This document shows positions 34,808 to 47,101 of a DNA stretch of 64,000 nucleotides, one piece after another. The notes below the pieces were generated by a model. That model made no database searches and was not told the origin of the DNA. It worked only from the letters and a program-made list of their open reading frames with translations. The translations under genes were made by a program, and so were the position numbers. Numbering within the stretch: position 1 is the first letter of the stretch; each line of letters opens with the position of its first letter. Source of the stretch: Bdellovibrionales bacterium RIFOXYC1_FULL_37_79 (GTDB taxonomy: Bacteria; Bdellovibrionota; Bacteriovoracia; Bacteriovoracales; Bacteriovoracaceae); contig MEQB01000042.1 in NCBI GenBank assembly GCA_001770015.1, positions 1 to 64,000 on the forward strand, given 5' to 3'.

Positions 34808-34848
34808 ATAATTTCTCCAGGATGGGGAAGAAATGGACAGGAGGTCTA

Positions 34849-35787
34849 ATGAACAATATAAACGTCGAATTATTTGGGAATGATCCAAAAATTCAAAAAG
34901 CAATTTCAGTTGCCAGAAATGTTTCAGTTACCAAAGCATCAGTTTTGATAACCGGAGAAATTGGGGTCGGGAAAAAAAGCCTTGCTCGATTTATTCATAA
35001 CAATTCTAATCGGGCAGATCAGGAGTTTCTAATTGTTGATTGTTCAGTGGACACTAAAGAGGTGGAAAACAAGATACTGGGCTATCGAGATGCTGAGTCT
35101 GGTAGATTTGTAAAAGGTATTCTGGAAGCTGCCAATAAAGGGACAGTGGTTTTTGCCAACATAGATTCGCTAGATGAGGATTTTCAAAAGCGTCTGCATA
35201 AAATATTCAATCAGTTGAATGATTATGATATTGATGTAAGAATTCTCGCTACCACCACAAAAAACTTGTCTAAATTAGTTGGTTCGGGAAGATTTTACAG
35301 GGGACTTTATACCTACGTTTCATCCAATCTGATCACCTTGACACCAATCAGGGAACGTCCGGAAGATTTACAAATGTATGTGAATTATTTTATTAAGGAA
35401 TATTCTCTTAAATTTGCTAAAGAAGTGAATATTGGGGTGGATGCCTTAGATAGAATTAATACTCATTATTGGACACATAATCTTTATGAACTTAAAACGG
35501 TGTTAGAAAAATCGGTAGAAGGTGCACAAAGCAGTATCCTAAGCGATAAAGAACTGGCGATTGGGGAAAAGAAAGCGGTTAGTATAATATCGGAAGATGA
35601 TAATGAGGGAATTTTACTCATGTCGCTTAAAGATGCTGAAAAACTGCTAATCAAAAAGGCGCTTATTCATACCAGCGAAAATAGAACCCAGGCTGCCAAG
35701 ATTTTGGGCGTATCCATTAGGACGCTTCGAAACAAAATTAATGAATATAGGACAGCAGGCAGTTCATATTTTGTTAATTTGAGATAA
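34849..35787 (+). CDS. NtrC-like AAA+ regulator lacking GAFTGA and Walker B acidic residues
   Basis: A 312-residue protein from ATG 34849, which has a strong AGGAGGT site; the ATG at 34822 upstream has none. There is no receiver domain. Walker A GEIGVGKK (36-43) is kept, but the GAFTGA position reads ILGYRDAESGRF (77-87) and Walker B reads VVFANID (100-106), so the catalytic Asp-Glu is Ala-Asn. The C-terminal Fis-type helix-turn-helix (NRTQAAKILGVSIRTLRNKI) is intact. It can therefore bind DNA and perhaps ATP but should not remodel sigma-54 holoenzyme. Twenty-one bases separate it from flgB. Confidence 0.85.
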   Translation: MNNINVELFGNDPKIQKAISVARNVSVTKASVLITGEIGVGKKSLARFIHNNSNRADQEFLIVDCSVDTKEVENKILGYRDAESGRFVKGILEAANKGTVVFANIDSLDEDFQKRLHKIFNQLNDYDIDVRILATTTKNLSKLVGSGRFYRGLYTYVSSNLITLTPIRERPEDLQMYVNYFIKEYSLKFAKEVNIGVDALDRINTHYWTHNLYELKTVLEKSVEGAQSSILSDKELAIGEKKAVSIISEDDNEGILLMSLKDAEKLLIKKALIHTSENRTQAAKILGVSIRTLRNKINEYRTAGSSYFVNLR

Positions 35788-37033: not shown

Positions 37034-37091
37034 GATAATAATATAAACCACCCGACACAGGATGTGGAGGGTTAGATTCAGGAGGAATTAC

Positions 37092-38780
37092 TTGCAAGAC
37101 TTTATAGAACGGATTACAAGAAATTTCTTGGATTTTTTTTCCAGTCTTAGTGCAGTCAAAAAAATAGGATTTCTTTTTATTGCGGGTATTATTATTGCCA
37201 CGATGGTTTCTATTATTTCGTGGGCATCCAAAACCCAGTATGAGGTTTTATATACCGACCTGAATAAGGAAGATACCACTCAGATTGCCGCACTTTTAAG
37301 TGAAAAAAATATTCCATATCAATTAGCCGATGATAATAAAACGATCAGAATACCCAAAGAGATGGTGGAAGCTTGGCGTTTGAAGCTGGCCATGACGGGA
37401 GTTTCATTTAGTGGAACAGTGGGGTATGAAGTTTTTGATAAGCAATCATTTGGTACCACTTCTTTTGTGCAAAAAGTAAATAAGCAAAGAGCTCTTGAAG
37501 GTGAGCTTATTAAAACCATTAAATATATAAAAGGTGTCAAGCGCGCTCGAGTGCATTTATCGATACCCGAAAATAGTCCATTTGTATCAGAGAAAAAGCC
37601 CCCGCAAGCTTCCGTCGTGCTTGATCTTGAAAATGGAGTGAATCTTACTCCTAACGAAATAAAAGGTATTGGTTCGCTGGTATCTTCATCGGTTGATGAA
37701 ATGAGACCAGAAAATGTGGTGATATTAGATGATCGAGGGAAAAAATTATCTGAAAATATTGGTGATCCCTTGACCGCTCATACCGCCAATAGATTGGCGT
37801 TGGAAGGGAAATTAAACCGTAAGTATGAAACCCAGGTAGAGGAAATATTAAGTAAAGTGGTAGGGGATGGAAAAGTTATTGCCAAGGTCAGCGTGGAGAT
37901 GGATTTTACTGAATCAACGGCAACTGAAACTAAATATGATGGCGAAAATAAAGCGGTTATTTCTGAAGTGGTCAATAGCGAAAATCTTAAAGGATCAAGG
38001 CCTTCACCGCAAGGAATTCCTGGGGCAAGAAGTAATCTTCCTTCTGAACAACCCCAACCTGGTATTCCGGAAACTAGAAATGATGTAGATAAAAATCTTA
38101 CCACTCGTAATTATAGTATACCAACCACTGTCACCAAATCCAAAAACCCCACGGCGGGAGTTAAGAAAGTCAGTGTGGCAGTAATGGTGGATGGCAGAAG
38201 AGTCCCTGCCTTTAGTGAAAAAGGTGATCCGGTTTTAGATAGTAGTGGTATGCAAAAAACCAAATATGAGAAATGGGCTGAGGCTGATATTGCCAATTTT
38301 AAGGCCATCGTTGCTTCCAGCCTTGGGATTGATGAAAAACGTGGTGATAATATTGTTATAAAAAATATGGAGTTTGCACAAGAAGATCTCGCTGCTATTG
38401 AGTACATGATGAGGCAAAAAGAAAATCGTGCCTTGATCCTTAGTATTGTAAAATATTTGGCAGTGGGATTGACCATCTCACTCTTTTTCTTCCTGGTAGT
38501 AAGGCCGTTTATTCAGTGGATAACTGATAATACCGTTGAGTCTATTGAAGACTTTTTACCTAAAACACTTGAGGAACTTGAGAAAATTCAAACCAATCAA
38601 AAGTTACCAGGTTTAGAGGAAGCCCTTCCCCAAATTGAAGAAAAAATCAATCCTGAAAAAATTGAAGGGAATATGTTACGAGAAAAAATTATTTCTCTGG
38701 TGGAAAATGATCCAGCCAAAGCGGCACAGGTTATCAGAGAAATGATTCATTCAAATGAATCAAATAAAGAAATTGCCTAA
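37092..38780 (+). CDS. fliF: Flagellar MS-ring protein FliF
   Basis: A 562-residue protein from TTG 37092 with AGGAGG seven bases upstream; the in-frame ATG at 37062 would add an arginine-rich stretch and has no such site. Membrane helices at about residues 24-45 and 452-476 flank the periplasmic ring-building motifs (EVLYTDLNKEDTTQIAALL, RVHLSIPENSPFV, ASVVLDLENG) and a proline-rich loop. The cytoplasmic tail carries the FliG-binding segment. It forms the MS ring on which rod and switch assemble. Confidence 0.95.
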   Translation: MQDFIERITRNFLDFFSSLSAVKKIGFLFIAGIIIATMVSIISWASKTQYEVLYTDLNKEDTTQIAALLSEKNIPYQLADDNKTIRIPKEMVEAWRLKLAMTGVSFSGTVGYEVFDKQSFGTTSFVQKVNKQRALEGELIKTIKYIKGVKRARVHLSIPENSPFVSEKKPPQASVVLDLENGVNLTPNEIKGIGSLVSSSVDEMRPENVVILDDRGKKLSENIGDPLTAHTANRLALEGKLNRKYETQVEEILSKVVGDGKVIAKVSVEMDFTESTATETKYDGENKAVISEVVNSENLKGSRPSPQGIPGARSNLPSEQPQPGIPETRNDVDKNLTTRNYSIPTTVTKSKNPTAGVKKVSVAVMVDGRRVPAFSEKGDPVLDSSGMQKTKYEKWAEADIANFKAIVASSLGIDEKRGDNIVIKNMEFAQEDLAAIEYMMRQKENRALILSIVKYLAVGLTISLFFFLVVRPFIQWITDNTVESIEDFLPKTLEELEKIQTNQKLPGLEEALPQIEEKINPEKIEGNMLREKIISLVENDPAKAAQVIREMIHSNESNKEIA

Positions 38781-45298: not shown

Positions 45299-45721
45299 AT
45301 GACAGGACCTAAAATTAATAACTTTTTTGTGCCGAATGTATCAAAACTGAAAGGGCAAAAAACTGTCGATTTAAGAGAGCAGCTTGGCAAAAATTCTACT
45401 CAGGGAGAATTTGAGGAACTCTTAAAGGTCCAGCTTGAAAATAAAAATGGATTAAAGGATGTTCAAGAAATCCAGCTTTCATCTCATGCAGCCAAGCGTT
45501 TGAAAGAAAGAAATTTAGAAATGGATGCAAATGAATTTTTTAAATTAAAAAAAGCCATAGGTACACTTCGGGATAAAGGAGGACATGACTCTTTAGTGAT
45601 AACAGATAAAGCTGCTTATATTGTTGATGTTGATAATAATAAAGTGGTGACGGCATTGGAGAAAAAAGAGATGGCAGAAAATGTTTTTACGAAAATTGAT
45701 TCGACGATTTTTATAGAATAA
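45299..45721 (+). CDS. Flagellar operon protein of the TIGR02530 family
   Basis: A 140-residue protein. IQLSSHAAKRLKERNLEM and DSLVITDKAAYIVDVDNNKVVTAL are the signature of the TIGR02530 flagellar operon family, consistently encoded between flgD and flgE. The function is not firmly established; location suggests a role in hook assembly. It lies 7 bases after flgD. Confidence 0.85.
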   Translation: MTGPKINNFFVPNVSKLKGQKTVDLREQLGKNSTQGEFEELLKVQLENKNGLKDVQEIQLSSHAAKRLKERNLEMDANEFFKLKKAIGTLRDKGGHDSLVITDKAAYIVDVDNNKVVTALEKKEMAENVFTKIDSTIFIE

Positions 45722-45725
45722 TGAC

Positions 45726-45795
45726 TTAGTCAGCATTAGGCTGGTCCTTTCCGGAAGCCTAATTTAAGCCTGTAGTTGTTTAAATTGCTGACTAA
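45726..45795 (+). promoter_or_regulatory. Predicted three-way-junction RNA structure in the flgE leader
   Basis: An outer 9-base stem TTAGTCAGC (45726-45734) pairs with GCTGACTAA (45787-45795). Inside, ATTAGGCT (45735-45742) pairs with AGCCTAAT (45756-45763), and TTTAA pairs with TTAAA across an 11-base loop (about 45763-45785). The structure ends ten bases before the AGGAGGG site of flgE. No T run follows, so it is not a simple terminator; it could stabilise the flgE message or control translation. Confidence 0.5.
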
Positions 45796-45817
45796 CTAGG
45801 TGTCTAGGAGGGACAAA

Positions 45818-47101
45818 ATGGGTATTCTTCAATCATTTCAAATTGGTGTTTCTGGTCTAGGTGCAACAGGTAATGGTCTTACCGTAATTGGTGATAATAT
45901 CGCTAATGCAGGCACGATTGGATTTAAACGATCAAGGGCCGAATTTCAAGATGTTCTATCAACTTCCCTCAAAGGAGTGGATGGTGGAGATCAATTTGGC
46001 CATGGAGCTAAGCTTTCACATATCAAACCGACTTATACTCAAGGTAGTTTAACTAGAACTGAAAATTCAACTGATTTGGCACTTAATGGTAATGGCTTCT
46101 TTACAGTTCAAGCTCCCTTTGGAACTGGTTTCACTCGGGATGGATCCTTTAATTTTGATAAAGAAGGATTTTTGATTAATGGAGATGGATATAAGGTAAT
46201 GGGATATACCGCTACAGAAGATGGAAAAATTGCTAATAAAATTGAACCCATTAAGCTCGGTAATACGACTGTTCCTGCCCAGGCCACTAAAGAAGTGGAA
46301 GTCTCTATGAATATTGATTCCCGAAGTAAAGTATTACCGTTTAATATTTTAAAACCTGATGATTCCTCCAGTTTTAATACAGGTATGACGGTTTATGATA
46401 ACGTCGGAACCGCCAGATTGGTTACTCTCTATTTTAACAAAGCAAGCGACAATACATGGGAATATCATGCATGTGTGGATGGAAAAGATGCAGCCGGAGG
46501 AAAAGAAGGTCAAATGGTGGAGATGGCTTCTGGAAAGGTCATTTTCAATGATAAGGGAAATCTACTTCGTGAAGAGGAAGGAAAAAATGCTTTTAATTTT
46601 AATCAGGGTGCCGCTCCTGGACAAAAAATTAAATTTAATTTTGGAAAATCTATTACCGAAGGTGGAACTGGTATTGATGCTTCTACGCAGTTTGGTTCAG
46701 AGTCATCTGTCGCTAGACATTCCCAAGATGGTATGAGTGCTGCTACATTAGCTAGCTTGTCATTTAATGATGATGGTGTTTTGACCGCTGTTTATAATAA
46801 CGGTTTTTCAAGAAATATGAGCCAGATCGCTGTTGCCAAATTTGAAAATAACGAAGCTCTCTTTAAGATGGGAAAAAATCTTCTTAAGGAAACCAGAAAA
46901 TCTGGACAAGCGATTATGGGCAAACCTCATCAAGCAGGTCGAGGCGAGGTTGTGGCCAAATCTCTGGAACTTGCTAACGTTGACTTGGCTCAGGAATTTG
47001 TTGATTTGATAACCACTCAGAGAAATTTCCAGGCCAATGCTAAAACTCTAAGAACTGCTGATCAAATGTTAGAAGAGGTAATCAATATCAAACGTAATTA
47101 A
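45818..47101 (+). CDS. flgE: Flagellar hook protein FlgE
   Basis: A 427-residue protein from ATG 45818 with AGGAGGG upstream; the in-frame start at 45800 overlaps this site. The N-terminal MGILQSFQIGVSGLGATGNGLTVIGDNIANAGTIGFK and C-terminal VDLAQEFVDLITTQRNFQANAKTLRTADQMLEEVINI coiled-coil motifs are typical of hook proteins. It polymerises into the universal joint outside the cell. Last gene of the flagellar operon, followed by a strong terminator. Confidence 0.95.
   Translation: MGILQSFQIGVSGLGATGNGLTVIGDNIANAGTIGFKRSRAEFQDVLSTSLKGVDGGDQFGHGAKLSHIKPTYTQGSLTRTENSTDLALNGNGFFTVQAPFGTGFTRDGSFNFDKEGFLINGDGYKVMGYTATEDGKIANKIEPIKLGNTTVPAQATKEVEVSMNIDSRSKVLPFNILKPDDSSSFNTGMTVYDNVGTARLVTLYFNKASDNTWEYHACVDGKDAAGGKEGQMVEMASGKVIFNDKGNLLREEEGKNAFNFNQGAAPGQKIKFNFGKSITEGGTGIDASTQFGSESSVARHSQDGMSAATLASLSFNDDGVLTAVYNNGFSRNMSQIAVAKFENNEALFKMGKNLLKETRKSGQAIMGKPHQAGRGEVVAKSLELANVDLAQEFVDLITTQRNFQANAKTLRTADQMLEEVINIKRN

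Follow-up and report, generated by a model that had tools for sequence, protein, structure and literature searches.

The flagellar hook gene flgE is preceded by a real cis-regulatory RNA that is conserved across many genomes and of which our searches turned up no earlier description. It was found in a stretch of 64,000 nucleotides from Bdellovibrionales bacterium RIFOXYC1_FULL_37_79 (hereafter the window), and comparison with related genomes confirms the structure of the RNA, its conservation and its linkage to flgE. Since the fold is conserved and ends in a Shine-Dalgarno (SD) hairpin that resembles a CsrA target, hook production is very probably controlled at the level of translation. We give a probability of about one half to the reading that the element is a cis-acting translational-control leader of flgE in which CsrA acts at the SD hairpin and the hairpins preceding it provide a second platform. 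It is an old question how the synthesis of hook protein is adjusted to the progress of assembly. The element described here is compact, occurs in most flgE-carrying genomes of the phylum, has no entry in Rfam and comes with a clear candidate regulator, CsrA.

Structure and genomic context

The minimum-free-energy fold of positions 45726-45795 (the helices and the two flanking genes lie on the + strand) is a three-way junction of the helices P1, P2 and P3 with an energy of -25.9 kcal/mol. Dinucleotide shuffles of the same stretch reach -13.6 ± 2.7 kcal/mol, which corresponds to a z-score of -4.6, and none of 200 is as good. The outer helix P1 pairs a 5' strand at 45726-45735 (UUAGUCAGCA) with a 3' strand at 45786-45795 (UGCUGACUAA). 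Enclosed by it are the P2 hairpin (45737-45761), which reads UAGGCU[GG]UCC-UUUCC-GGAAGCCUA with the internal loop in brackets, and the P3 hairpin (45762-45785; AUUUAAGC-CUGUAGUU-GUUUAAAU) with its conserved terminal loop C-Y-G-U-M-G-U. Both strands of P1 and the P3 hairpin are backed by the fold and by covariation, P2 in addition by its occurrence in other families.

The original prediction, made from the letters of the window, had placed a three-way junction at 45726-45795, and both the fold (z = -4.6) and covariation bear it out. It had also described helices with perfect or near-perfect pairing; this holds for the presence of the three helices but not for P2 as an uninterrupted stem, which is broken by a 2-nt GG internal loop at 45743-45744, the most conserved feature of the whole element. 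The proposed extent is real but incomplete, as a fourth hairpin, P4 (45802-45814, GUCU-AGGAG-GGAC), which carries the SD of flgE in its loop and is a candidate CsrA site, had been missed; the full RNA unit in the window, P1-P2-P3 together with P4, covers 45726-45814.

This unit fills the intergenic gap of 96 nt between a stop codon at 45721 and the flgE ATG at 45818, which is, as had been noted, the only sizeable gap in the flagellar operon, the others measuring about 60 nt or less. The gene directly upstream (45299-45721) is a flagellar gene of the TIGR02530 (flg_new) type (NCBIfam, E = 5.7e-24, above cut-off). Downstream, the hook protein gene flgE (45818-47101; Pfam FlgE_D2 at 3.1e-20 and FlgEFG profiles) is the putative regulated gene and closes the operon in the window. 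The operon reads flgB-flgC-fliE-fliF-fliG-fliH-fliI-fliJ-(184 aa ORF)-fliK-like-flgD-TIGR02530-[RNA]-flgE, in which the names from flgB to the fliK-like gene are assigned from order and sequence and not from a profile hit. Among the relatives of FlgE, the protein of the Bdellovibrionales RIFOXYA1_FULL_36_14 MAG is 99% identical, and the next, from a Bacteriovoracaceae MAG, 81%.

Covariation within the family of the window

A covariance model was built in two rounds (R1 and R2) and searched against 369 genomes of one phylum of Bdellovibrio-like bacteria, a scope from which no restriction of the element to that phylum is claimed. R2 yields about 105 strong matches, all of them in the family to which the window belongs and one per genome. 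Among the 104 strong matches examined, 102 have a confirmed flgE downstream on the same strand and the remaining two (L085 and L136) run off contig ends. The distance from the element to the ATG is 14-81 nt in this family, with a single case of 235. Weak R2 matches away from flgE (E between 1e-6 and 0.01) were rejected as simple terminator-like hairpins; none of them precedes flgE, and one adjoins a tRNA-like stretch. The short pattern GGTCCTTNCYGGA was likewise discarded as a signature of the element, being unspecific outside the window's family.

The flgE leaders of the relatives have the P2 and P3 loops in common and differ in the sequences of the helices. Over 97 distinct sequences of the window's family, double changes occur in 18 of 21 pairs, and the number of double-changed cells (539) compares with 155 ± 16 after shuffling and with 108-153 when the partners are slid. 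In the same set P1 shows double changes at all seven modelled pairs with 80% of its cells paired; P3 equally changes at seven of seven, with 90% of cells paired, and P2 at four pairs, with 99.4% paired. Fitting the alignment to the model introduces a bias toward structure; the helices themselves were first seen in independent single-sequence folds. Chance is ruled out by the compensatory changes in the relatives, and the covariation among related flgE leaders, whose absence had been named beforehand as evidence against the element, is found at the large majority of pairs.

Certain positions hardly vary. The GG internal loop, the UCC and the GG facing it are invariant in 100 of 100 aligned elements, and the loop C-Y-G-U-M-G-U of P3 is invariant or nearly so throughout the window's family. 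Such constancy implies a specific partner or a tertiary contact for P2-P3. Finally, G-U cells outnumber A-C cells by 112 to 56, as fits an RNA transcribed from the + strand.

A core element in other families

Across about 20 further families of the phylum, most flgE leaders contain a hairpin with the GG internal loop, in the form GGGCUGGUCCUC-GUA-GAGGGGGCCC or GGCUGGACCC-NNNN-GGGAAGCC. It is followed, in 5' to 3' order, by the P3 hairpin, whose loop resembles YGAHYGAYUGAR, and then by the SD hairpin, and no enclosing P1 helix is evident in the leaders of these families. The three-way junction, in which P1 closes P2 and P3, was seen in the window's family only; the phylum-wide core of the element consists of P2, P3 and the SD hairpin.

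In an alignment of 17 leaders from other families all pair cells (100%) are standard, and 69 are double-changed as against 20 after shuffling. A second model, R3, which covers P2-P3, matches 135 further genomes with one match each. Wherever such a genome has an independently located flgE (45 of 45), the match lies directly upstream of this gene, at 1-94 nt. Another 19 located flgE genes lack an R3 match, and in some of these leaders (e.g., L151-L153, L157 and L158) a P2-like hairpin can be recognised by eye. R3 also aligns in register with the element of the window (E = 0.015 for L002, 0.004 for the sister L003), an argument for a shared origin of the P2-P3 core. On this comparative evidence, compensatory change has kept P2, P3 and P4 intact in the majority of the phylum's genomes with a located flgE.

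The leaders of one family, f3 (L151-L153 and L249-L251), keep the GG-loop hairpin (CUGGCCCG...GGAAGC), in some cases with long apical arms, and have neither P3 nor an SD hairpin of the P4 type.

The Shine-Dalgarno hairpin

The stretch around the SD reads GTCTAGGAGGGAC in 88 leaders, and in 101 of the 104 leaders of the window's family set P4 presents a GGA in the loop of the SD hairpin. Variants of the stem (GUUC/GAAC, AUCC/GGAU, GUCC/GGAC) preserve the pairing. P4 is also found, at a stem score of 3 or more, in most leaders of other families, where its loops read AUGGAG, AAGGAG or AGGAG and the stem covaries strongly. In a swap test these leaders have a mean score of 3.35 with their own flanks versus 1.70 with swapped ones, and none of 2000 shuffles is as high. 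The corresponding values within the window's family are 3.52 and 3.33; here P4 varies so little in sequence that its covariation is weak, and so is the test. As a background, 20 SDs of the window, that of flgE included, have a mean stem score of 2.1, and 35% of them reach 3 or more.

Two other SDs of the operon lie in hairpins with an AGGAG loop, namely those of the regulator-like gene at its head (GGACAGGAGGUC; 34830-34850) and of the fliF-like gene (AUUCAGGAGGAAU; 37075-37092); CsrA may act on both of them as well. One genome carries an additional, divergent copy of flgE (L162, G011:C3), which has the SD hairpin UGUUC-AGGAG-GAACA and no three-way junction.

CsrA as the putative regulator

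The high-affinity target of CsrA/RsmE is the apical hexaloop CANGGANG (PMC4894983), and the CsrA motif has been given as ANGGAN (PMC7652899). The forms CAUGGAGG and CAAGGAGG of P4 in other families match the CANGGANG hexaloop exactly. An AnGGAN hexaloop (AUGGAG or AAGGAG) is present in most of these families, as opposed to the AGGAG or UAGGAGG loop of the window's family. Moreover, csrA was detected in 74 of 77 genomes tested, with fliW adjacent. P4 is thus a candidate CsrA-binding site, and control by CsrA is the mechanism that the sequences favour most. In C. jejuni, flgE mRNA co-purifies with CsrA with a 68-fold enrichment, in the ORF (PMC4894983).

According to this scheme, a CsrA dimer bound to P4 would cover the SD and block ribosome loading, a block that FliW, encoded beside csrA, would relieve. 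P2-P3 would act as a second recognition platform, to which a different protein or, in an unconventional manner, CsrA itself would attach; there is less support for this than for the P4 site. Such a platform could make control specific for flgE within the polycistronic mRNA. As P4 has drifted from AnGGAN in the window's family, specificity there may depend to a larger degree on the P1-P2-P3 domain. The idea, put forward with the original prediction, that a cis-acting RNA tunes the output of hook protein gains support from covariation, the single copy per genome, the strict linkage to flgE and the covarying SD hairpin.

Several observations do not fit easily with a CsrA leader. Besides the non-canonical loop and the weak P4 covariation in the window's family, hairpin scores are also obtained for a number of ordinary SDs in the window. 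In addition, P2-P3 offers no GGA in a hairpin loop, and thus the usual second CsrA site is missing; the window leader itself has just one GGA outside P4, and this one is paired within P2. Some CsrA targets make use of one site on the SD alone, E. coli hfq being an example cited in PMC7652899. Individual genomes point both ways. G042 (L157; 94% complete) has neither a csrA nor a FliW match and keeps the GG-loop hairpin, and its flgE SD hairpin, AACU-UAGGGGG-AGUU, has no GGA, although this is one genome only. As a counter-case, G056 possesses CsrA and an SD region devoid of GGA, and the six f3 leaders deviate as well in having no P4.

If CsrA control is nevertheless correct, it predicts that CsrA-FliW regulation, known from flagellin, extends to the hook, and comparison already names the invariant bases concerned: the GG loop, the P3 loop and the AnGGAG loop. 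We tentatively add a more far-reaching version, in which the phylum-wide RNA is dedicated to flgE and a factor bound to P2-P3 would sense hook assembly or FlgE export and gate the CsrA-type SD hairpin; if true, this would constitute a dedicated RNA checkpoint for hook synthesis.

Alternative explanations

The P2 hairpin could also interact with the SD directly. Such a switch would have an off state, incompatible with P2, in which the SD is paired with the 5' strand of this hairpin (GUCCUUUC) or, in other families, with a CCUCC linker that follows it, and a ligand, a protein or temperature would shift the balance. An 8-bp duplex of about -13 kcal/mol is indeed possible in the window's family and is predicted to be favoured in 39 of 102 leaders, but in 45 of the 102 it almost never forms, and P2 and SD do not covary in this family (-13.45 with the own SD, -13.40 with swapped ones). 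For the CCUCC linker the own SD is a slightly better partner than swapped ones (4 of 500 swaps are as good), but for the P2 5' strand in other families it is a worse one. Furthermore, L006 and L088, in which the SD flanks have changed, retain P4 and lose the complementarity to P2, which favours P4 over the P2-SD pairing. Although energetically strong, this pairing shows no covariation and its ensembles are inconsistent; it was rejected as the main explanation, and the switch as a whole appears doubtful.

A different reading takes P2-P3 to be bound by a flagellar protein, so that translation of flgE would respond to how far hook assembly or export has advanced, with CsrA secondary or absent; FlgE itself is one candidate, others are a hook-assembly factor and the product of the TIGR02530 gene just upstream. 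That the element is tied to flgE alone and occurs in one copy per genome would suit this reading, as would the invariant GG loop and the conserved P3 loop, which resemble recognition elements. FlgE of Salmonella, in a different phylum, is reported to be under post-transcriptional control that responds to the stage of assembly (work by Bonifield and colleagues in 2000), and we know of no comparable RNA element there. None of the candidates has a known RNA-binding activity, however, TIGR02530 being suggested by gene position alone, and the SD hairpin closely matches a CsrA target in most families. We consider this explanation improbable.

Quite unlikely is a role in mRNA stability or processing, with the element marking an RNase cut or protecting the flgE end and so raising FlgE over FlgD. 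FlgE is the most abundant structural protein of the operon, FlgD and others being low-copy, and its gene comes last in the operon of the window, both of which would agree with such a role. Yet a plain hairpin would suffice for this purpose; the invariant loops and the covarying SD hairpin suggest recognition and translation instead.

A metabolite riboswitch with P1-P2-P3 as the aptamer could account for a junction with conserved loops near an SD, but is very unlikely: the matches precede one structural gene only, with transport or metabolic genes absent among them, Rfam riboswitch families are unmatched, and the alternative P2-SD pairing, though possible, has no support from covariation. Inverted repeats acting at the DNA level (operator, promoter or terminator), of the kind that proteins can bind, are largely refuted by compensatory change combined with little sequence conservation in P1 and P3, by the excess of G-U over A-C cells, by the constant orientation before the SD and by the absence of a U-tract after the helices.

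Relation to known RNA elements

Neither the window nor 13 related loci give a match above the gathering threshold in Rfam release 15, which includes RF01736 and the c-di-GMP riboswitches; when E values as high as 10 are admitted, two weak matches to snoRNAs are all that appears, both below threshold. Our literature searches on RNA leaders of flgE and on CsrA in Bdellovibrio turned up no description of this element, and the original statement that no element of this kind is known at this gene agrees with both results. The flg-Rhizobiales RNA motif (RF01736) is a candidate cis-regulatory RNA also tied to flagellar genes (PMC2864571), but it is restricted to Rhizobiales and cmscan does not detect it in the window or the 13 loci. 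The name of the GUCCY-hairpin motif (Weinberg 2010), which is of unclear function and occurs in Bacteroidetes and Proteobacteria (PMC2864571), recalls the GGUCCU of P2, a comparison by name and description only; GUCCY is not constant here, as GGACC or GGCCC takes its place in the P2 of other families.

The closest parallels are the CsrA-bound flagellin leaders antagonised by FliW, B. subtilis hag and C. jejuni flaA. The flgE element shares with them the position in a flagellar mRNA leader, a GGA hexaloop hairpin on the SD, with the CANGGANG loop in other families, and the presence of csrA-fliW. It differs in that the target is the hook gene, in that the GG-internal-loop hairpin and P3 replace the second GGA hairpin, and in the non-canonical P4 loop of the window's family. 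Flagellin leaders of this same family (L166-L181) often have two consecutive hairpins with AnGGA-type loops, i.e., the classic double CsrA site, as in CUGACAAAC-AAGGAC-GUUUGUCAG followed by AUC-AAGGAG-GAU on the SD.

In the window's own genome a contig ends within csrA, whose remaining part lies 200 nt ahead of fliW. A flgL-like gene lies at the edge of another contig, and flgL-csrA-fliW (G000:C3:3-614 and G000:C45:780-1193) probably form one cluster split by the assembly. The same genome has nine matches to the flagellin N-terminal domain, one of them FlgL-like, with the flagellins lying in separate places.
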